Of a stretch of 64,000 bases of DNA, positions 15,342 to 25,242 are shown piece by piece. The stretch is from Aphanocapsa sp. GSE-SYN-MK-11-07L (GTDB lineage Bacteria; Cyanobacteriota; Cyanobacteriia; Thermosynechococcales; Thermosynechococcaceae), in NCBI GenBank assembly GCA_019359715.1, contig JAHHGS010000022.1, forward strand, positions 1-64,000, given 5' to 3'. A program made the translations under genes and the position numbers. How positions within the stretch are numbered: the first letter of the stretch is position 1; each line of letters begins with the position of its first letter. Below the pieces are notes generated by a model that had not been told where the DNA came from, searched no databases, and saw only the letters and a list, made by a program, of their open reading frames with translations.

Positions 15342-18300
15342 ATGATTAGAGAACACGATCGCGTTACCTTAACAGTCGATGTTCCAGAGTATGGACTCAA
15401 ACGGAACGACCAAGGCACAGTTGTGTTTGTTTATCAGCGGGGGCAGGGGTACGAGGTTGAGTTTTTTGCACCCGATGGTCGCACAAAATCAGTCGCAACC
15501 CTCTTAGCCTCTCAAGTTGGCCCGATTTTGACGAGCGATCGCCTATCTTCAGTTGGTTTGTCCTCTACGCCAAAAGCAAGTTATACCGCAGCGTCTAACA
15601 CCTTACCCTCGCTCATCCACTCCACTATTCAAGAGTTAAGCCGTCAACAGCGCCCCTATTACTTCCTCCAGAGCCACCCAGTAAAAGGAGTAGGTGGGCA
15701 ATACTGGCTGATTTTTCAGCATCGAGACGCTGACAAGGGTGGAAATTTCCTGAAAAACATCGTCTCTCTACTGGGGTTCAAAGACAAAGCTGCTCCCCAG
15801 AAGGTAATTCGGATTGATCCCAACACTGCCAAGATCTACACCTACAGTTCCCTCAAACCTGGCGATCTTCCCTCCCCCGCGCTACTCCGTACAGGCAGTC
15901 TCAAAGTCATTGAAAAATTTCTCGCCCTAGAACGTACCACTAAAGAACCAGCCCTACTCAGCGGCAGCTTCCGAGAAATTAAAGGGATCAAACGACGTTA
16001 TAACCTACCCGCACAGCTAGAGCCATACAACAAAGTAACAGCTCAGATGCTGGAACGCAGCAGCATTTACCGCCGTTCCACCGCTTACTTTGATAGTGGC
16101 GTTCTCAAACTCTATGAAGAACCCTTACAAACGATCATCAAAACCGAAGGGCAAATTCGGCTGCTGATGGACTGGCAAGGATTTACCAAACGCGCTGATG
16201 TGGCAGAACTCGAAAAACTCCACAATCCTGACTACCGTGCCCAATTCATTCAACGTACCCTACAAGAATTTCTCCAAGGGCTTGAAGAGAATGCCTTTAA
16301 TGGAACTCAAATCTTGGCTGAATTAGTGCGGTTGGGATTTCTAGACATAAAGCTGATTAAGATGAGTCAGCAAAATTCGCTTTACCACAAAAAAACAGGG
16401 ATTTTCAGCGATCGCCTCGACAATCATATTCTGCACGAAGGCTCAGATAACTTTACCCGTGCCGCGCACTCTCGTAACGCGGAAAGCGTCACCTTCCTTT
16501 ACTCTTGGGAGCAGCTTGACCAGGAAACCATTGAGCAAAGCATCCAGGAATTTGATAGGGAGTGGCAGCGTCAAGACCTTGCCTATGACTTAAATCAAGA
16601 ATTCCTCCAGCAAATTCTGCAAGAGTACGATCGCCGTGTACAGCAACGTCAGCCCAAAATTGACACTATTACGCCGCCAGAGCTACCCCCAGGTGAGATA
16701 ACCGAAGTCACCATCACCGGAGAAAACCTGGATCAGGTTGCTGGAATCACCGTCCCAGACAATGAACTTATCAACATCGCCATTACGAACCAAACCCCAG
16801 GCGAAATGATTGCTCAGGTTGAGGTAGCAGCAGAGCATCCCCCTCAACCCATCACCGAGCTGCGAGTCAAAGAAAAATCAGGCGGCGAATACGATACTTC
16901 TCTCAATCAGCCGCCCCAAGTCAGCCAGACCCTGGAGATTCCAGATTTTCCAGAAATTGAAGGCTTCAAACAGGCCGTTGAGATTATTTTGGCAGCTCAG
17001 CATGGCAAGCCAGAAGATTTTCTCTACTGGATGGCAAAGCAGCGCCCCCGTCAGTTCCAGGTAGAGCGCAGCGACCTTCTAGATCAGCTAGTCAATCAGG
17101 AAATTCTGTTTGAACATCAGAAATCAGGCGCACAGCATTGTCTACGCGTCATGCAAGACTTTGGCGTAGCCGTCTGTGCCGATGCAGTGGGGTTAGGCAA
17201 AACTCGATTGGCGGCAGCCGTCGCCCGACTCCATCGCCAGCAGTTTGAAACCGACCACGGGAGTCAGACCAAAATCGCCATCATCGCCGCCAAAAAACTT
17301 TTCCTCAACTGGGAGCGGGAAATGGCTGAGCTAGGCTTCCGTGTTAGTGAATATGAACTTTACAATAAAAACTTGATGAGTCGCAAAGGAAACGGTTTTC
17401 TAGAAGACTTTAACCGCTACGGTGGCCCTGACTTGGTGATTATTGATGAAGCCCATGAAGGGATTCGCAACTACAGAAACCTTATCCACAAGCTTTGTCT
17501 GCAAATGCAAGAACGCGATCAGCAGACGGGTAAGCAACGAAATTTCTTACTGTTAACAGCAACGCCCTGGAACAACCGTAGAGAAGACATCTACAACATT
17601 CTTCAACCCTTTCTGACGCGTCCTGAAGGTTTTGCTGACCTGGGGTTTCCGCCAGAACTAGCGCTGTGGTTTCAGAACCGCGAGACTGGGGTAGAGCAAT
17701 TTACAGATGATTCAAAACTCTTTCGTCAGACCTATCGGGAACTCTTTCTTCAGCGCACCCGCCAAATGCTCCGAGAGGCTATGCCCGACCTTAACATCTA
17801 CGCCAAGCGTCGAGCAGAGTGGCTACCTGTCCAGTTTGAGGACGCTACCGAACAGGCCCTAGAGCAAATCTTCACCCACTTTGAAACCAATCTGTATATT
17901 CCCTTTGCAGACCCGATTCGCTATCTCAAAGGTAATGCCGAGCAGAGATCGCTCCTGCAAAATCAGCGACGATTTTTTCTACAACGAGCGGAGTCGAGTA
18001 TGTATGCTCTCCGCCGCACCATCGTCAACTTCAGAAATCGGATTGTGCAGATGCAGGAGCGGCTTAGTGCTGTAGAACCCACGGCTGACGGCCTAAAAGC
18101 ATTCCTGTATCTGCACTATGGTTTTGCCTCTAAGCAAAATGAACCGATTAGCCTCATTGATTTAGACGAGAAAGAGGCTTGGGACGAAGACTACGAAGCA
18201 GAGGATGACGATGATGAGGAAAGCACTGAAACTCAAGAAATCAAACGGCAGCAGCTCCATCGCTCGATTGAGCTTGCCATTGAGGAATTACAGAAAAATC

Positions 18301-19892
18301 CAGCAGAAGCCCAGCGAATTCATCATCTGATGGAGGCTGCTTGCGAAAGCGACCTGACCCAACTCCAAGAGATTCAAGACCTCTTAGCAGACGAGTTTGT
18401 CAAAGACCATAAGCGAGAACAAGTCACCCAAAAGGTACGGGAACTCTTGAGTCAGGGTCAGAAAGTGTTGCTGATCTCTACCTTTTCAGATACGGTTCTT
18501 GACTACTACCGCTATATGACCCAAGATGCGGCGATTGCGTCTCAGGGCATTGGTATGGCGATCGGCTCAACCAAACGGTACTATCCCGATAGCTTGGATT
18601 CCAGTCACTTGAACCGAGTTGTGCAATTCTCCCCCCACACCATCTTGAAAGGCCAAAAGCAGCGTACAGGTATCAAGCGTCAGGAATTGTTTCGTCTCTT
18701 TGCCCCTGCTGCTACCTGTAAAACGAGCGCTGAGCAACCCAGTCCCACAGAAGAGCTAATGGTTTTAATTGGGTCTGAAACCTTGTCGGTGGGTCAAAAC
18801 CTCCAGGATGCCGACTACCTAATTAATATCGATCTGCCCTGGAATCCGATGACGCTAGAACAGCGCATTGGTCGGATTGACCGTCCCAAAAAGCACCATC
18901 CAGAAAATATTCATATCTACTACGCCAATAGCGAGAGCCAGCTCTTACGCCAAGCTAGCCGACTTTCTAACCTCAACAAGAAGCTGGTGGGCGAAGACTT
19001 CACCAATCCAGAGGGAGACATCAAAAACGTCACCGATGCCGATGCTTTAGGCGCTTCCATCTACGGCGATACTCTGTTTGATGATGCTATTTTGCCAGGA
19101 TACGTTGAGTTTCTACAAAGTTTAGTCAAAGCCCGACAAATAGAACAAGGGAGCCTTCAGGAAGCAGTTTACCTTGCCCAGGAAACGACCCGCGACCTCT
19201 ATACGCAGCAAGAGATTCTGCATAGCGAAGACCTCAGCCGATTACTGGAGCGCTTGGGCGAAGATTATCGAGCAAACCCGATTACCCTAGGTCGTAAAAT
19301 TGGAGAGCAAGATGAACCCACAGGACTACTGGCTTTAACGGCTCAATACTTTGGGCCAAATGGCGAAGATATCCTAGACCAGCAGCACCTGCTTTTTTGG
19401 AATGACCAAACCGGAGAACGCGATGGCTATGGCGTGGCGATCGCCACTGCCTTTAAGACTCCAGAAGCCGGAGATGTTTTCTCCGCCAAGTATCTGCTTT
19501 CCTGTGCTCAAATTCTTTATCATCAACTTGTCGCCCTCAAGCAGCAGCGAGTCGCAGAATTGACCCAGCCTGAAACTTTAGAGAACATCAATATCACCTC
19601 CGAACGCCTTAACAAAATCCAGCAGCGCATTAGCGCTTTGGATCGTTTTCCAACCGGACTAGACCGCAAGATAGTCAAAGACACCCTCAAAAAGCTAAAC
19701 CTTTGGAAAGGAATTAAGTCTGTCCAGAAATTACTGCGAGACTACACAGATGGGACAAAAGCTCAACTTGATAGTTCTGTTTTTGTGACAGAGCTAGTTA
19801 GCGACACAGACGCTCTTAATCTGATTGCCTCTGAAGGAATTAAACCCACCACCTTAAAATTTTCTCTAGCGGCTTTGTTACTTAGAGCTTGA
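15342..19892 (+). CDS. DUF4926-PLD nuclease-IPT/TIG-SNF2 helicase fusion
   Basis: 1516 residues. Domains in order: DUF4926 (about 1-63); an unknown linker; a PLD-type phosphodiesterase domain (about 215-400) with YHKK (about 347-350) and EGSDNF (about 366-371); a segment of about residues 438-525 that reads like an Ig-like IPT/TIG repeat (PPGEITEVTITGENLDQVAGI...); then a SNF2-type helicase. The helicase has Walker A DAVGLGKT (about 614-621), DEAH (about 702-705), LLTATPWNN, and the motif V/VI region SVGQNLQDADYLINIDLPWNPMTLEQRIGRIDRP. PLD plus SNF2 next to an adenine methyltransferase recalls DISARM-like and other restriction systems. No drmA or drmB homologue is present, so it is not classical DISARM. 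Role in DNA defence is inferred. Confidence 0.9.
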   Translation: MIREHDRVTLTVDVPEYGLKRNDQGTVVFVYQRGQGYEVEFFAPDGRTKSVATLLASQVGPILTSDRLSSVGLSSTPKASYTAASNTLPSLIHSTIQELSRQQRPYYFLQSHPVKGVGGQYWLIFQHRDADKGGNFLKNIVSLLGFKDKAAPQKVIRIDPNTAKIYTYSSLKPGDLPSPALLRTGSLKVIEKFLALERTTKEPALLSGSFREIKGIKRRYNLPAQLEPYNKVTAQMLERSSIYRRSTAYFDSGVLKLYEEPLQTIIKTEGQIRLLMDWQGFTKRADVAELEKLHNPDYRAQFIQRTLQEFLQGLEENAFNGTQILAELVRLGFLDIKLIKMSQQNSLYHKKTGIFSDRLDNHILHEGSDNFTRAAHSRNAESVTFLYSWEQLDQETIEQSIQEFDREWQRQDLAYDLNQEFLQQILQEYDRRVQQRQPKIDTITPPELPPGEITEVTITGENLDQVAGITVPDNELINIAITNQTPGEMIAQVEVAAEHPPQPITELRVKEKSGGEYDTSLNQPPQVSQTLEIPDFPEIEGFKQAVEIILAAQHGKPEDFLYWMAKQRPRQFQVERSDLLDQLVNQEILFEHQKSGAQHCLRVMQDFGVAVCADAVGLGKTRLAAAVARLHRQQFETDHGSQTKIAIIAAKKLFLNWEREMAELGFRVSEYELYNKNLMSRKGNGFLEDFNRYGGPDLVIIDEAHEGIRNYRNLIHKLCLQMQERDQQTGKQRNFLLLTATPWNNRREDIYNILQPFLTRPEGFADLGFPPELALWFQNRETGVEQFTDDSKLFRQTYRELFLQRTRQMLREAMPDLNIYAKRRAEWLPVQFEDATEQALEQIFTHFETNLYIPFADPIRYLKGNAEQRSLLQNQRRFFLQRAESSMYALRRTIVNFRNRIVQMQERLSAVEPTADGLKAFLYLHYGFASKQNEPISLIDLDEKEAWDEDYEAEDDDDEESTETQEIKRQQLHRSIELAIEELQKNPAEAQRIHHLMEAACESDLTQLQEIQDLLADEFVKDHKREQVTQKVRELLSQGQKVLLISTFSDTVLDYYRYMTQDAAIASQGIGMAIGSTKRYYPDSLDSSHLNRVVQFSPHTILKGQKQRTGIKRQELFRLFAPAATCKTSAEQPSPTEELMVLIGSETLSVGQNLQDADYLINIDLPWNPMTLEQRIGRIDRPKKHHPENIHIYYANSESQLLRQASRLSNLNKKLVGEDFTNPEGDIKNVTDADALGASIYGDTLFDDAILPGYVEFLQSLVKARQIEQGSLQEAVYLAQETTRDLYTQQEILHSEDLSRLLERLGEDYRANPITLGRKIGEQDEPTGLLALTAQYFGPNGEDILDQQHLLFWNDQTGERDGYGVAIATAFKTPEAGDVFSAKYLLSCAQILYHQLVALKQQRVAELTQPETLENINITSERLNKIQQRISALDRFPTGLDRKIVKDTLKKLNLWKGIKSVQKLLRDYTDGTKAQLDSSVFVTELVSDTDALNLIASEGIKPTTLKFSLAALLLRA

Positions 19893-20075: not shown

Positions 20076-20426
20076 CTAGTCAAGACTTTCCAGGCTCAGG
20101 GGCACAAAGTTACCCGTTGTTGTCCAGCCCATCAGCATTGGCTGTTGGGCTGCAATAATTTTGCCAGTCAGGGCACATTGTTCATCTTGTTGGGCTGTGG
20201 CGGGAATCGTCGCCTGAATGGAAGAGCGATCGAACTCAGCTTGGGGACTCGCCGATCGCTGGTTGACATAATCCCAGAGAATTTCCCGAATCAGGGTCTG
20301 ATACCCCAAGTTACCAGATAGATTGCGGAGTCGTTCCTTTAGCTCTGGCTCTAGCCGAATGCTCGTGACCTGCATATCGGCGGTCGAGGGTCGCTTCGTG
20401 GAGGGGATCGCGATCGCAGTCGTCAT
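20076..20426 (-). CDS. Ribbon-helix-helix DNA-binding regulator
   Basis: 116 residues. The segment MQVTSIRLEPELKERLRNLSGNLGYQTLIREILWDYV (about 18-54) is a ribbon-helix-helix fold: a beta strand with TSIRL and two helices with a conserved Gly turn. The C-terminal half is unknown. Such proteins bind DNA as dimers on repeated half-sites and often control their own promoter. A motif GTAGTATGTT lies about 42 bases upstream of its start and recurs at the tRNA-array promoter (22208-22240), so it may control both. Confidence 0.7.
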   Translation of the reverse strand: MTTAIAIPSTKRPSTADMQVTSIRLEPELKERLRNLSGNLGYQTLIREILWDYVNQRSASPQAEFDRSSIQATIPATAQQDEQCALTGKIIAAQQPMLMGWTTTGNFVPLSLESLD

Positions 20427-20458: not shown

Positions 20459-20477
20459 CTACACCCTGTAGTATGTT
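20459..20477. promoter_or_regulatory. Possible operator of the RHH regulator
   Basis: CTACA-CCC-TGTAG is a perfect short palindrome (20459-20471), and it runs into GTAGTATGTT (20468-20477). The latter matches the repeated motif at the tRNA-array promoter. It lies upstream of the minus-strand regulator gene, as expected for autoregulation. Confidence 0.35.
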
Positions 20478-20782: not shown

Positions 20783-21361
20783 ATGCAACCCCACCAGCAA
20801 AGACCACGATCGGTATTACACAACTTAGTCGTGGTGTTCTCGAAGAACTACTTGCCGATTAGTCGGATTAATGTCAAGCGCGCCGTCACGCTGCTGGTGG
20901 CGGGTCAGGCAGAGCCACTTGGCTTCAGTGACAGGGGCTGGCAGGTGCGATCGCCCAGCCTTGTGGTTGAGGTGCCGGAGCACATCCGGCTGACGATCGC
21001 CAATCCTGAGCGGCACTGGAAGCTGCCTCCGGTCGGCAGACGGGAGGTGTTAGGGCGAGATGGCCACAGATGCCAATACTGCGGCAGCAGCAAGCGACTG
21101 ACCTTGGATCACGTGATTCCCAAGTCAAAGGGTGGCCCCCACACCTGGGATAACGTCGTCACCGCTTGTGAGCCTTGCAACTTGAAAAAGGGCAACCGGA
21201 CACTGCAAGAAACCGGCATGGTGCTGACCACAAAACCCAAGCCGCCGATTCACCCAGCCGTTGCCTTTGCCGAGCAGTTCTGGCGGACTGACCCTCAGTC
21301 CTGGCTCTATCACAGTCGGAAACCGAGTAAAGAGTCTGGTTGTTTCGACCGGACGGCATAA
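20783..21361 (+). CDS. HNH endonuclease
   Basis: 192 residues. GAGGAGA at about 20771-20777 is the ribosome site. Residues about 97-145 form an HNH domain: CQYCG (zinc Cys 97 and 100), LTLDHVIPKSKGG (catalytic His 110), HTWDNVVTACEPCN (Cys 128 and 131) and KGNRT. The N-terminal ~85 residues are typical of a common stand-alone bacterial HNH family that follows a VFSKNYLPIS opening. Function is uncertain: such proteins occur near mobile elements and defence loci. It lies between the RHH regulator and the tRNA array. Confidence 0.85.
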   Translation: MQPHQQRPRSVLHNLVVVFSKNYLPISRINVKRAVTLLVAGQAEPLGFSDRGWQVRSPSLVVEVPEHIRLTIANPERHWKLPPVGRREVLGRDGHRCQYCGSSKRLTLDHVIPKSKGGPHTWDNVVTACEPCNLKKGNRTLQETGMVLTTKPKPPIHPAVAFAEQFWRTDPQSWLYHSRKPSKESGCFDRTA

Positions 21362-22196: not shown

Positions 22197-22229
22197 TTGA
22201 CATTTTTGTAGTACGTTATGTAGTATAAA
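22197..22229 (+). promoter_or_regulatory. Promoter of the tRNA array
   Basis: TTGACA at 22197-22202 is a perfect -35. TAGTAT at 22221-22226 (18-base spacer) or the overlapping TATAAA (22224-22229) is the -10. The first tRNA starts about 80 bases downstream. Between the preceding repeat (ends 22046) and this promoter, about 150 bases show no gene. Confidence 0.6.
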
Positions 22230-22306: not shown

Positions 22307-22381
22307 GGGGGTGTAGCTCAGTTGGTCTAGAGCGCCTGTTTGTCGAACAGGAAGTCGTGGGTTCAAATCCCATCACTCTCG
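22307..22381 (+). tRNA. tRNA-Asp(GTC)
   Basis: A 7-bp acceptor (GGGGGTG/CACTCTC, two G-T pairs), D-stem GCTC/GAGC, anticodon stem CCTGT/ACAGG with loop TTGTCGA, T-arm GTGGG-TTCAAAT-CCCAT and discriminator G. Anticodon at 22342-22344. First gene of the array. Confidence 0.9.
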
Positions 22382-22387
22382 CCTTAA

Positions 22388-22461
22388 AGTCTCGTGGACG
22401 AGTAGATAAGTCGCTCTGATTCTCAGTCAGAGAGCAGCGGGTGCAGCTCCCGTCGAGACTC
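22388..22461 (+). tRNA. tRNA-Glu(CTC), atypical
   Basis: The acceptor AGTCTCG/CGAGACT is perfect. The anticodon loop TTCTCAG carries CTC (22422-22424) on a TCTGA/TCAGA stem. The D-stem is only 3 bp and the T-loop reads TGCAGCT instead of TTCRANY, so it may fold or be modified abnormally. Confidence 0.7.
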
Positions 22462-22470
22462 CCAATTCTG

Positions 22471-22542
22471 CTCCAGGTGGCCGAGTGAGAAGGCGTTGGT
22501 CTGCAAAACCGATCTGCGTGGGTTTGATTCCCGCCCTGGAGT
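22471..22542 (+). tRNA. tRNA-Cys(GCA)
   Basis: Acceptor CTCCAGG/CCTGGAG, anticodon loop CTGCAAA (GCA at 22503-22505) on TTGGT/ACCGA, T-arm GTGGG-TTTGATT-CCCGC. The discriminator is U, as expected for tRNA-Cys, and CCA is encoded at 22543-22545. Confidence 0.9.
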
Positions 22543-22551
22543 CCAAGGCAT

Positions 22552-22622
22552 TGCAGTGTAGCTTAAGGCAAAGCCCCAAGTTCATATCTTGGTTGATGTG
22601 AGTTCAAGTCTCATCACTGCCA
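22552..22622 (+). tRNA. tRNA with CAT anticodon (Met or lysidine-Ile)
   Basis: The acceptor pairs over 6 bp (GCAGTG/CACTGC) with a T-C mismatch at the first position. Anticodon stem CCAAG/CTTGG with loop TTCATAT (CAT at 22583-22585), T-arm GTGAG-TTCAAGT-CTCAT. The amino acid cannot be decided by eye. Confidence 0.7.
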
Positions 22623-22626
22623 CTAT

Positions 22627-22697
22627 GCAGAGATAGTGTAATGGCAGCACAAGGGTCTCCAAAGCCTTTGGTCTGGGTTCAAGTCCTTGTCTCTGTG
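22627..22697 (+). tRNA. tRNA-Trp(CCA)
   Basis: Acceptor GCAGAGA/TCTCTGT, anticodon stem AGGGT/GCCTT (two wobbles) with loop CTCCAAA (CCA at 22659-22661), T-loop TTCAAGT and discriminator G, which is usual for bacterial tRNA-Trp. Confidence 0.8.
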
Positions 22698-22703
22698 TTA
22701 CGT

Positions 22704-22776
22704 GGCCCTATCGTCTAGCGGCCAAGGACATCCGACTTTCCATCGGAAGACACGGGTTCGAATCCCGTTAGGGCTA
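22704..22776 (+). tRNA. tRNA-Glu(TTC)
   Basis: Acceptor GGCCCTA/TAGGGCT, anticodon stem TCCGA/TCGGA with loop CTTTCCA (TTC at 22738-22740), T-arm ACGGG-TTCGAAT-CCCGT, discriminator A. It is a second Glu tRNA beside the CTC one at 22388. Confidence 0.9.
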
Positions 22777-22888
22777 CTGGTTGTAGCAGCGTATGCAAAG
22801 TAGTCGATTGACTTTCAAGTTGATGCTTGCAGGTATCTCCTTTCAAGATGCCAAAGCAAAAACTCCAAATTCTTTGTGAGCAAATCAT
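22777..22888 (+). other. tRNA-array spacer with two hairpins, possibly a decayed tRNA
   Basis: ATTGAC-TTTCAA-GTTGAT and GGTATCT-CCTTTCA-AGATGCC both form stem-loops. The word AGGTATCTCCT is shared with the disrupted tRNA at 23544. No acceptor stem can be drawn, so I do not call a tRNA. Confidence 0.4.
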
Positions 22889-22970
22889 AGGTCGGCCCGC
22901 CTACCAGCGTGGGCAACTGTCTGTAAAACAGCCGCTTCTTGCGTTGCAGGTGCAAGTCCTGCCCGACCTA
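22889..22970 (+). tRNA. tRNA-Tyr(GTA)
   Basis: Class II. Acceptor AGGTCGG/CCGACCT, anticodon loop CTGTAAA (GTA at 22923-22925), long variable arm CGC-TTCTT-GCG, T-arm GCAGG-TGCAAGT-CCTGC. CCA is encoded at 22971-22973. Confidence 0.88.
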
Positions 22971-22978
22971 CCACCGTT

Positions 22979-23061
22979 GGAGAGTAATCCGATCGGGCGA
23001 TCGGCGCTGTTTGCTAAACAGATGGAGTTTAACGCTTGTGGTTCAATTCCACTGCTCTCCG
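22979..23061 (+). tRNA. tRNA-Ser(GCT)
   Basis: Class II. Acceptor GGAGAGT/GCTCTCC, anticodon stem CTGT/ACAG with loop TTGCTAA (GCT at 23013-23015), long variable arm, T-loop TTCAATT and discriminator G. Confidence 0.85.
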
Positions 23062-23067
23062 CCTTTT

Positions 23068-23140
23068 GAGAACGTGGTGTAACGGCAAACATCTTGGTCT
23101 ACGAAACCAAAGAGTGAAGGTTCAACTCCTTCCGTTCTCG
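23068..23140 (+). tRNA. tRNA-Arg(ACG)
   Basis: Acceptor GAGAACG/CGTTCTC is perfect. Anticodon stem TTGGT/ACCAA with loop CTACGAA (ACG at 23101-23103), T-arm GAAGG-TTCAACT-CCTTC. The ACG anticodon needs TadA editing to inosine. Confidence 0.9.
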
Positions 23141-23148
23141 CTACTCGT

Positions 23149-23231
23149 GGAGGATACCGCTGAATGGTCGGCAACTGGTCTTGAAAACCAGGGTAGCTCT
23201 TGGGCTAGGGGTTCGATTCCTCTATCCTCCG
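23149..23231 (+). tRNA. tRNA-Ser(TGA)
   Basis: Class II. Acceptor GGAGGAT/ATCCTCC, anticodon stem CTGGT/ACCAG with loop CTTGAAA (TGA at 23182-23184), variable arm about 16 bases, T-loop TTCGATT, discriminator G. Confidence 0.9.
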
Positions 23232-23238
23232 CTTGAAG

Positions 23239-23336
23239 GGGAAGTTGGTGAAGCTGGTGCTCACGTGCCGCTGAAGACGGCGAGATGGCGGTTCGTTCGC
23301 GTCAGCGTCTCAGAAGGAGAATCCCGTTACTTCCCA
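23239..23336 (+). tRNA. tRNA-Phe(GAA) interrupted in the T-loop
   Basis: Acceptor GGGAAGT/ACTTCCC, D-stem GTGA/TCAC and anticodon stem TGCCG/CGGCG with loop CTGAAGA (GAA at 23273-23275) are all intact. The T-loop reads TTCG, then about 25 extra bases (23296-23320) matching a short cyanobacterial repeat (GCGTCAGCGTCTC...), then ATC. Without the insert the gene is a normal tRNA-Phe. Confidence 0.7.
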
Positions 23337-23342
23337 CTCATT

Positions 23343-23456
23343 GCCCTATAGCTCAATGGCGGAGCGAGCCTCTTTCAGAGGAGCTACGCTAACGCCTGTT
23401 AAGCGAGAGGTTGTAGGTACCGCTTCGCGGAAGCAAGCTACGAGTCCTACCATTCC
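23343..23456 (+). pseudogene. tRNA-Asn(GTT)-like gene with two insertions
   Basis: D-stem GCTC/GAGC is present. The anticodon stem CTC+GC / GCGAG with loop CTGTTAA (GTT at 23398-23400) is split by 21 bases (23373-23393). The T-loop between GTAGG and CCTAC is split by about 22 bases (23419-23440) that contain an internal hairpin. No acceptor pairing is visible, so it is probably dead, unless the inserts are removed and the ends are rearranged. Confidence 0.55.
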
Positions 23457-23461
23457 GATTT

Positions 23462-23536
23462 ACACCGGAGGCGAAAGCGGTGGACGCGCACGCCCGATAA
23501 GCGTGTTTTTAGCAGGTTCGACTCCTGCCCGGTGTA
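23462..23536 (+). tRNA. tRNA-Ile(GAT)
   Basis: Acceptor ACACCGG/CCGGTGT is perfect. Anticodon stem CACGC/GCGTG with loop CCGATAA (GAT at 23496-23498), T-arm GCAGG-TTCGACT-CCTGC. Discriminator A and encoded CCA at 23537-23539. Position 33 is C rather than U. Confidence 0.8.
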
Positions 23537-23543
23537 CCAAAAT

Positions 23544-23640
23544 GGGTCGTTGGCAGAGCGGTTATGCAGCCGCCTTTCAAGCGGAAAAATCTAGGTATCT
23601 CCTACGGAGACGCTGCGCGAACAACTCCTGTCACCAGCTT
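23544..23640 (+). pseudogene. Disrupted tRNA-like gene (anticodon TTC)
   Basis: A D-arm-like stretch and a clear CCGC-CTTTCAA-GCGG anticodon arm (TTC at 23576-23578) are followed by an insert of about 26 bases (23597-23622) that carries the palindrome TCTCC-TAC-GGAGA. The T-arm and the acceptor cannot be closed. It ends the array, 60 bases before rtcB. Confidence 0.5.
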
Positions 23641-23699: not shown

Positions 23700-24881
23700 A
23701 TGCCTTACGAATCTCTAAATTTATCCACTCGCGCTCCTGTTCTCTCTTGGGCAGGGCATGAGTTAGGACATGATGAAGCCCGGATGGCGCGGAATGTGGC
23801 CTCACTGCCGTTTGTGTTTAAGCACGTTTCGCTGATGCCAGATGTGCATTTGGGCAAGGGCGCATTGGTCGGTTCTGTCATCGCAACCGAGGATGCGATT
23901 ATTCCAGCCGCGATCGGGGTAGACATTGGCTGCGGCATGGCTGCGATCAAAACTCCCTATGGAGCATCCCAGCTAGACGGCAAGCTGAAGCAAATCCGGT
24001 TAGAAATTGAAGCCGTGATTCCGACTGGCTTTAACGACAACAAAGCGATCGCAAAGACCGTGACCAACTGGCAGGGCTGGCAGCAGTTCAAAGATTTGCA
24101 CTCCGGCGTCAAAGATCTAGAAGGCAAGGCAGCCAAGCAGATGGGTTCGCTCGGTGGCGGTAACCACTTTATTGAGGTTTGCCTAGACGCTGAAGATCAG
24201 GTGTGGCTGATGCTGCACTCTGGTTCTCGCCATATTGGCAACGCTCTGGCCCAACGGCACATTGAGACGGCTAAGGGGTTAGCCAAACTGGCAGCGGAAA
24301 AACTGCCCGACCCTGACTTAGCTTACTTTGTCCAGGGAACCGCCGAGTTTGATGCCTACTGGCGTGACCTGCAATGGGCCCAAGGCTACGCCCTCTACAA
24401 CCGAGTCGTGATGATGACTCGACTCCAGCGGATCATTGAGCGCCACTTGGCCGGAGGCAAGCCGATGAAGCCGTTGCTGGAGGTGAACTGCCACCACAAC
24501 TACGCCGAGCGCGAAGTTCATTTTGGCGAAGAAGTTTACGTCACCCGCAAGGGGGCGGTACGGGCCCGCGAAACGGACTATGGCATTATTCCCGGCAGCA
24601 TGGGTGCAAAGTCATTCATTGTGAAAGGAAAGGGCAATGCTGACAGCTATTGTTCTTGCTCTCATGGAGCTGGACGGCTGATGTCTCGCAACAAGGCGAA
24701 GCTCAGCTTCAGCTTGGATGACTTGATTCAGCAAACTGCCGGAGTAGAATGCCGCAAAGATGCTGGAGTAATCGATGAGATCCCTGGTGCCTACAAGCCG
24801 ATCGCCCAAGTCATGGCCAACCAAGCTGATTTGGTTGAAGTGGTTGCCACTCTAAAGCAAGTGATTTGCGTCAAAGGCTAA
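23700..24881 (+). CDS. rtcB: RNA-splicing/repair ligase RtcB
   Basis: 393 residues, the shorter RtcB class. RtcB joins 2',3'-cyclic phosphate and 5'-OH RNA ends, using GTP and Mn2+, and is the tRNA-splicing ligase of archaea and animals. Visible motifs: LMPDVHLGKGALVGSVI, the metal Cys in DIGCGM (about 75-80), GSLGGGNHFIEVC, LHSGSRHIG, EVNCHHNYAERE, GIIPGSMG and the GTP-linked His in CSHGAGR. It lies directly after the tRNA array with AAGGA upstream, probably on the same transcript, which suggests that it repairs tRNAs from the array. Confidence 0.95.
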   Translation: MPYESLNLSTRAPVLSWAGHELGHDEARMARNVASLPFVFKHVSLMPDVHLGKGALVGSVIATEDAIIPAAIGVDIGCGMAAIKTPYGASQLDGKLKQIRLEIEAVIPTGFNDNKAIAKTVTNWQGWQQFKDLHSGVKDLEGKAAKQMGSLGGGNHFIEVCLDAEDQVWLMLHSGSRHIGNALAQRHIETAKGLAKLAAEKLPDPDLAYFVQGTAEFDAYWRDLQWAQGYALYNRVVMMTRLQRIIERHLAGGKPMKPLLEVNCHHNYAEREVHFGEEVYVTRKGAVRARETDYGIIPGSMGAKSFIVKGKGNADSYCSCSHGAGRLMSRNKAKLSFSLDDLIQQTAGVECRKDAGVIDEIPGAYKPIAQVMANQADLVEVVATLKQVICVKG

Positions 24882-24911: not shown

Positions 24912-25242
24912 TGCTAGCTCTAGGCGTTGTCTTCCAAACTCGCGGTGCTCAAGTCTCGTTGATCGCGAGTTGATTAAAATGTTTGTCTTTTGCATTTCCT
25001 ATCCGCCGCACTGTTCACCAGCAAGCTGTACGTTTGTGTCGGGACAGAAAGTTGCCACTAGTCTTGTTCAAAATGTAAGTCAATGATATCGAAGATTGTT
25101 TGTCTCGGCGGTGATGGTCTTCGGCTCGACTGAGCGCTCGCCGAACGTCCTGTCCCCTTCGGCCCAGCTCAGGGGCCATTTGGAATCTGGCCCCTGAGCC
25201 GGGCCGAAGGGGTCAACCATCCCACCTCAACAAACCTGGCTT
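24912..25242. other. Gene-free region with a long palindrome
   Basis: About 330 bases without a convincing ORF. The main content is the 25-bp inverted repeat at 25154-25212, preceded by a TTCGGCTCGACTGAGCG-type stretch related to the insert in the MITE at 21369. It marks the right border of the tRNA-RtcB module. Confidence 0.5.
25154..25212. repeat. 25-bp inverted repeat, GC-rich
   Basis: The left arm CCCCTTCGGCCCAGCTCAGG(GGCCA) and the right arm (TGGCC)CCTGAGCCGGGCCGAAGGGG pair over 25 positions with a single mismatch and a 9-base loop. It would form a very stable cruciform or RNA hairpin. It resembles short palindromic repeats common in cyanobacteria. Confidence 0.75.

Follow-up and report, generated by a model that had tools for sequence, protein, structure and literature searches.

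Short palindromic inserts interrupt several tRNA genes of an array in Aphanocapsa sp. GSE-SYN-MK-11-07L, in the company of a gene for RtcB. Were these tRNA genes destroyed by repeats, or are the inserts excised and the halves sealed by RtcB, or simply tolerated in the tRNA product? The locus was analysed in a stretch of 64 kb (hereafter the window) and compared with related cyanobacterial arrays.

Inserts in a tRNA array of Aphanocapsa

The sequence of the 64-kb window holds a TrcR-type array (22307-23639) of about 15 tRNA genes with rtcB within it, and relics of tRNA genes lie both in the array and behind it (Table 1). As the tRNA-Gly(UCC) relic is located downstream of rtcB, rtcB is placed inside the array. 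In Anabaena PCC 7120, the TGTAGTAT motif marks the trn operon repressed by TrcR, and the TrcR regulon includes rtcB, an HNH gene and trcR itself (PMC10272220). The same octamer occurs in only two places in the 64 kb, the -10 box of the array and the region upstream of the trcR-like gene, and a motif scan of the 64 kb gave no TrcR motif belonging to rtcB itself. In most related arrays the motif lies 83-95 bp ahead of the first tRNA, and homologues of the HNH gene (60-73% identical) are found 5' of most of them. Based on the motif and the HNH neighbour, which recur in most related arrays, the window array is a member of the known TrcR-type system, combining a multi-tRNA array, TGTAGTAT over the -10 box and an upstream HNH gene as expected of a TrcR-controlled trn operon. 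By analogy with Anabaena we infer that TrcR controls it; as a stress-controlled cluster of spare tRNA genes it would be expected to bind TrcR and to be induced by translation inhibitors. The 116-aa product of the trcR-like gene had no match in Pfam and NCBIfam profile searches, and the gene is putatively named from its size, the look of its sequence, the motif and its neighbourhood. While the array resembles the trn operon and TrcR regulon of Anabaena PCC 7120 in gene content, in the TGTAGTAT/-10 promoter and in the HNH gene and rtcB of the regulon (PMC10272220), it differs in that rtcB and the trcR-like gene are physically beside or inside it, and in being shortened and insert-bearing. Two further observations concern the surroundings. 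For the unassigned positions 22777-22890, which separate Glu(TTC) from Tyr(GTA) and hold GGTATCTCCTTTCAAG, a Glu(TTC)-like relic is the best match. Farther 5' of the array (15342-19892), a protein of 1516 aa combines DUF4926 with PLD-like and SNF2/helicase domains and has the look of a helicase involved in defence.

Table 1 Positions of the array, its inserts and neighbouring features in the window
Feature	Position	Strand	Description
trcR-like gene (putative ribbon-helix-helix-type regulator, 116 aa)	20076-20426	-	ORF; homologues adjoin other arrays
TGTAGTAT motif	20467-20474		Sequence scan; 41-48 bp upstream of trcR-like gene
HNH endonuclease gene	20783-21361	+	5' of array; Pfam PF01844, E 2.3e-16
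Array promoter	22197-22226	+	From sequence; TTGACA ... TAGTAT (-10 box); -10 box overlaps TGTAGTAT at 22219-22226
Insert-free array part	22307-23232	+	Asp, Glu(CTC), Cys, Met, Trp, Glu(TTC), Glu(TTC)-like relic, Tyr, Ser(GCT), Arg(ACG), Ser(TGA)
tRNA-Phe(GAA)	23239-23337	+	Acceptor and anticodon stems intact, T-loop interrupted
SDR-type element, type A, 25 nt	23295-23319 (equally 23296-23320)	-	Phe T-loop; reverse orientation
Hybrid tRNA gene (Asn-like)	23342-23458	+	tRNA-Asn(GUU) 5' body, T-loop element, non-Asn 3' half (Pro(UGG)-like)
Two-hairpin element, 25 nt	23368-23392	+	Asn anticodon stem; inserted in HIP1 octamer GCGATCGC
Element, type B, 22 nt	23419-23440	+	ACCGCTTCGCGGAAGCAAGCTA; between T54 and C56 of Asn-like gene
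tRNA-Ile(GAT)-type gene	23462-23539	+	Without insert
Hybrid tRNA gene (Lys-like)	23544-23639	+	tRNA-Lys(UUU) 5' body, T-loop element, tRNA-Thr(UGU) 3' half
Element, type A, 25 nt	23597-23621	+	ATCTCCTACGGAGACGCTGCGCGAA; last gene, between T54 (23596) and C56 (23622)
rtcB (393 aa)	23700-24881	+	Pfam PF01139, E 3.7e-123
tRNA-Gly(UCC) relic	24929-24966	+	3' of rtcB; alignment score 43 vs shuffle maximum 29

Four inserts of 22-25 nt are present in the window, one in tRNA-Phe, two in the Asn-like gene and one in the Lys-like gene, all close to where the original prediction had located them. Its limits for the T-loop insert of the Asn-like gene were exact, and those for tRNA-Phe (about 25 bases, 23296-23320) are an equally valid reading of a 25-nt element. 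The insert in the Asn anticodon stem, given as 21 nt, is slightly longer at 25 nt according to the empty site in locus L392: joining its flanks with one T restores GCGATCGC and yields a body matching the Asn gene there, which has no insert. The last insert, given as about 26 bases up to 23622, is 25 nt long and ends one position earlier, just before C56. The Asn-like gene and the last gene do contain inserts, as proposed, but both turned out to be hybrids that have taken their 3' half from a different tRNA gene; that of the Lys-like gene is identical to the Thr(UGU) gene of L090 at 19 of 19 positions. Around the T-loop inserts in forward orientation, the T-stem and the positions C56, R57 and A58 are preserved. 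The element in the Phe T-loop is common to the arrays of three other genomes (G034, G101 and G167). In shuffled sequence, 0 matches are expected for the two longer insert patterns, and a chance origin of the matches is excluded. None of the three carrier genes was detected by ARAGORN and Rfam in the window.

Identity, target and distribution of the elements

Relatives of the window array were found by BLAST in many cyanobacterial genomes and plasmids, and interrupted genes were collected by scanning for T-arms that contain an insert and then running ARAGORN on the tRNA body with the insert removed. From this survey we obtained 108 distinct tRNA genes, all interrupted at one T-loop site; their anticodon labels number 34, and the genomes, all cyanobacterial, about 29 by our own count from the loci listing. 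The proposal to look for identical insert positions in related arrays was thus borne out by more than 100 genes. All but two are located in arrays, the exceptions (L115 and L261) being isolated copies, and no insert carrier was seen among housekeeping tRNA genes of the ordinary kind. Insertion into tRNA genes of rRNA operons was considered and rejected, the Ala case (L261) being a stray isolated copy and the Ile case (L115) degenerate. When array gaps were aligned without bias to tRNAs free of inserts, most inserts again fell in the T-loop, and the minority in D-loops and anticodon arms. Most inserts are 20-27 nt long, while compound inserts reach 49 nt. At the surveyed T-loop sites the junctions read TA..TAC in 71 cases, TA..AAC in 24 and TT..AAC in 9. 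The insert-bearing genes keep T54, C56, R57, A58 and the T-stem, which is present in the minimum-energy fold of 84 of the 108 isolated inserted T-arms.

The first hairpin is formed by 97 of 100 single inserts, and its stem occurs in compensated versions (CCC/GGG, CTC/GAG, CTGC/GCAG, TCTCC/GGAGA, TTGCC/GGCAA). A scan of species-representative genomes for B-type elements, in which no tRNA flanks were required, returned at least 78 distinct sites, all cyanobacterial among the matches listed. Among these matches 19 of 78 sites were T-loops and 59 of 78 were elsewhere, many of the latter in mini-transposon-like repeats (GTTGGGTTTCAC...CAACCCAACC) and heptad tandem repeats. For type A, 20 genomes were scanned; tRNA arrays account for roughly ten of the 17 exact sites, and type A-like copies are found in HIP1 sites elsewhere in the genome of the window, where the Asn anticodon-stem insert also sits in HIP1. 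Elements are additionally nested in each other (L096 Tyr, L121 Ala, L072 Glu), entering their own TTC triloop. With few exceptions across these contexts, T[A...A]C stands at the junction and TTC(A/G) at the corresponding empty site. Such a target fits the TTCRA of the T-loop and the TTC triloop, and equally the anticodon loops read in antisense, for example GGTTTTCAAG of Ser(UGA).

Judging from these features, the inserts appear to be elements of the cyanobacterial SDR type with one or two small hairpins, and the original prediction was right in holding them to be alike and akin to a common cyanobacterial repeat. Nostoc SDR4, SDR5 and SDR6, the small dispersed repeats of 21-27 nt described by Elhai et al. 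in 2008, reportedly share a hairpin with compensatory changes and are said to occur in mini-transposons, in heptad repeats, in HIP1 and nested in each other. We take the window inserts to match this description, the likeness extending to size, compensated hairpin, genomic settings and nesting. To our knowledge, neither SDR insertion into tRNA T-loops nor a hot spot in tRNA arrays has been described so far. Repeats confined to arrays, as hinted at first by B-type scans of five genomes, are ruled out by the wide scan and by the HIP1 copies in the genome of the window. A phage origin was likewise rejected, as viral contigs gave no match and phage matches span single tRNAs only.

One insert of this kind has been published under another name. 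Mohanta (2017, PMC5733544) reported 'group I introns' in cyanobacterial tRNA-Arg, tRNA-Gly and tRNA-Lys, among them one at nt 39-60 of tRNA-Arg(ACG) of Nostoc 7524. This gene, L096 4171-4267, contains an SDR-type insert of 21-22 nt that recurs in Kovacikia and Scytolyngbya. As 22 nt are far too short, the piece is not a group I intron but an insert of the array type, related to SDRs; the T-loop cases went unnoticed in that study (PMC5733544). More generally, inserts of 20-27 nt, or of at most 49 nt when compound, are too short for the catalytic core of such introns, which takes about 200 nt or more, and no group I intron family reached the Rfam threshold in the window.

Other insertions seen in the survey deserve mention. 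SDR-type elements that split the anticodon also exist. In tRNA-Phe of L070, L076 and L384, an insert common to several genera separates G34 from A35, in one case with a second element nested inside. On a plasmid of Nostoc sp. PCC 7524, 353 inserted nt bordered by long terminal inverted repeats (GTAGCGAAGCTGCTATCAGCC) split the anticodon loop of Ser(GCT), a gene that carries a T-loop element besides (L096:3706-4165). At L383:7715-7846 (G275:C132), a piece of rtcB that comprises only its last 44 codons (93% identical) is directly followed by a row of four tRNA genes (Gly, Val, Ala, His), each with a T-loop insert.

Elements are strongly concentrated in arrays. Across the array loci, 144 element cores were counted in 130 kb of array and 8 in 187 kb of flanking DNA, making arrays about 26 times denser, a count that some loci entered non-blindly, having been found via element patterns. 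In the plasmid loci picked solely by array homology (L088-L101), every core lies within the array. T-loop sense sites make up 58% of the TTCR motifs in array tRNA genes and roughly 80% of insertion events, which were counted partly by hand. Target choice explains most of the pattern within genes, but not the contrast between array and genome. Perhaps the hot spot reflects the biology of the arrays and not target choice, in that arrays moving on plasmids through SDR-active hosts gather insertions in those hosts and T-loops are hit commonly only as the main source of TTCR. The T-loop shares of motifs and of events and the frequent location of arrays on plasmids speak for this possibility, which we nevertheless regard as doubtful, as flanks on the same plasmids are nearly free of elements although TTCR is, by an estimate of motif density, about as common there.

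Splicing, tolerance or loss of function

The presence of rtcB in the array led to the proposal that the inserts are excised and the tRNA halves rejoined. T-loop inserts would then be bacterial tRNA micro-introns, cut out by an RNA endonuclease and sealed by the operon-encoded RtcB. Besides the location of rtcB and its membership in the TrcR regulon of Anabaena (PMC10272220), this is suggested by the single insertion site common to tens of otherwise intact tRNA bodies, by stem constraint that is near normal (see below), by an assembly without another intact tRNA-Phe, and by archaeal tRNAs, where EndA cleaves introns in D-loops and T-loops (PMC6379350). The likeness to such archaeal introns at non-canonical positions lies in the T-loop position and in RtcB, which would be the ligase, yet no EndA is known in these bacteria and excision of the array inserts does not restore U55. 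Most junctions run from T54-A to A-C56, and excision at the observed junctions leaves A55 or no nucleotide 55 in most genes; in the window, exact excision from the two hybrid carriers would not yield a canonical tRNA either. The elements also occur outside tRNA genes, in mini-transposons, tandem repeats, HIP1 and each other, there is no endonuclease candidate, and most of the T-loop-inserted arrays fetched have no adjoining rtcB. We know of no bacterial tRNA endonuclease. The co-regulation of RtcB is already accounted for by tRNA/rRNA repair, and RtcB is a known partner of the TrcR tRNA regulon without any splicing (PMC10272220). Splicing is not supported, and we consider it improbable.

Alternatively, the mature tRNA could retain the insert and tolerate it as an additional double hairpin at its elbow, so that the genes work, perhaps as stress-specific tRNAs. 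The conserved T54, C56, R57, A58 and T-stem, the T-arms that still fold and the near-normal stem constraint are all compatible with tolerance. On the other hand, the U55-G18 contact is lost, ordinary housekeeping tRNA genes include no carrier, and inserts of SDR-type elements that split the anticodon exist. An elbow extension of roughly 22 nt should moreover disturb contacts with RNase P, modification enzymes and the ribosome. Tolerance thus seems unlikely.

In the window, loss of function is indicated by the hybrids. The acceptor stems of the Asn-like and Lys-like genes cannot pair, for which reason these two carriers are dead, and since intact housekeeping genes for tRNA-Asn, tRNA-Lys, tRNA-Thr and tRNA-Pro are present elsewhere in the genome, the loss of the window copies would be harmless. 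The hybrids are most simply explained by a deletion that joined one T-loop element to another. Hybrid genes as a general pattern were discarded: other arrays contributed only one more case (L082 Gln/Thr) among 58 T-loop elements, with the same gene on both sides in 43 of 58 and an ambiguous outcome in 14 of 58.

Beyond the window the picture is less clear. Acceptor stems are perfect in 81 of 108 insert-bearing genes (75%) and in 647 of 752 insert-free genes (86%; P = 0.006). When differences were counted against the nearest insert-free homologue, 20% of changed non-T stem pairs were broken in insert-bearing array genes as compared to 17% in insert-free ones, while random change would break 79%. 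Pairs of genes sharing an insert were compared for signs of selection after insertion; the 14 usable pairs, with 7 changes broken and 12 kept or compensated, are too few for this and of unsure ancestry. Such near-normal stem constraint would fit recent insertion with early decay and retained function equally well. The claim that repeat insertions killed the genes is accordingly supported for the window, where a repeat family is involved and two of three carriers are hybrids with mismatched acceptors; for insert-bearing genes in general it is not proven, the carriers being less decayed than expected.

Taken together, the account that we consider probable is that mobile SDR-type palindromes enter TTC(A/G) targets of a dispensable, TrcR-controlled array, with window carriers inactivated and T-loop copies acting as deletion joints. 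Tiny palindromic elements of 20-27 nt would move into TTC(A/G) motifs of the array, where the T-loop (GG-TTCRANN-CC) is the commonest such target on offer, and replace or displace U55 to give T[A...A]C. In the window these insertions most likely inactivated their carriers, after which T-loop copies in neighbouring genes could have served as joints for deletion, which would have shortened the array and turned two of its tRNA genes into hybrids. Near-normal stem pairs, a richness of arrays in elements beyond target choice, and an assembly in which no intact housekeeping tRNA-Phe was found speak against this account.

The array tRNA-Phe and wider meaning

Among the expected tRNAs, just two had no housekeeping copy found in the genome of the window, Phe(GAA) and Leu(UAA); the latter gene contains an intron and is of a kind that the tools used would miss. 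Searching the 159-contig assembly with a full-length cyanobacterial tRNA-Phe, a query validated by end-to-end matches in most of 26 relatives, returned no intact tRNA-Phe besides the array copy. The query matched over its 3' half only (C139:13394-13438), with a degenerate 5' half alongside. In four family members tRNA-Phe adjoins holB, and the holB neighbourhood in the genome of the window contains no tRNA-Phe. With 159 contigs, an assembly gap is the plain explanation. If there is no such gap, the array tRNA-Phe with its T-loop insert would be the only one, and the cell may need it. At the half-gene site itself (L340:1381-1545; G000:C139:13274-13438), 15 nt of the Phe D/anticodon arm recur exactly, in inverted orientation, about 100 nt upstream, and an ATPase-like ORF that by eye is TniB/TnsC-like lies further upstream; the half-gene may be the att site of an island or a delocalised guide belonging to a Tn7-like CRISPR transposon.

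There is a small chance that the T-loop-inserted array tRNAs are functional, through removal of the element and sealing by RtcB or through tolerance, and that the array tRNA-Phe is the sole tRNA-Phe of this organism. These would then be the first bacterial tRNA micro-introns or elbow insertions.

While the elements themselves are ordinary in origin, the T-loop of arrayed tRNA genes is a new place for them, and on a new scale. A strong insertion hot spot can now be named for some of the smallest mobile elements known, and their exact target and junction constrain any insertion mechanism. More than 100 interrupted tRNA genes in cyanobacterial arrays have been overlooked by standard tRNA finders, and a published 'group I intron' is an insert of this array type. 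The arrays also offer a test bed for whether a bacterium with RtcB at hand can process or tolerate interrupted tRNAs.
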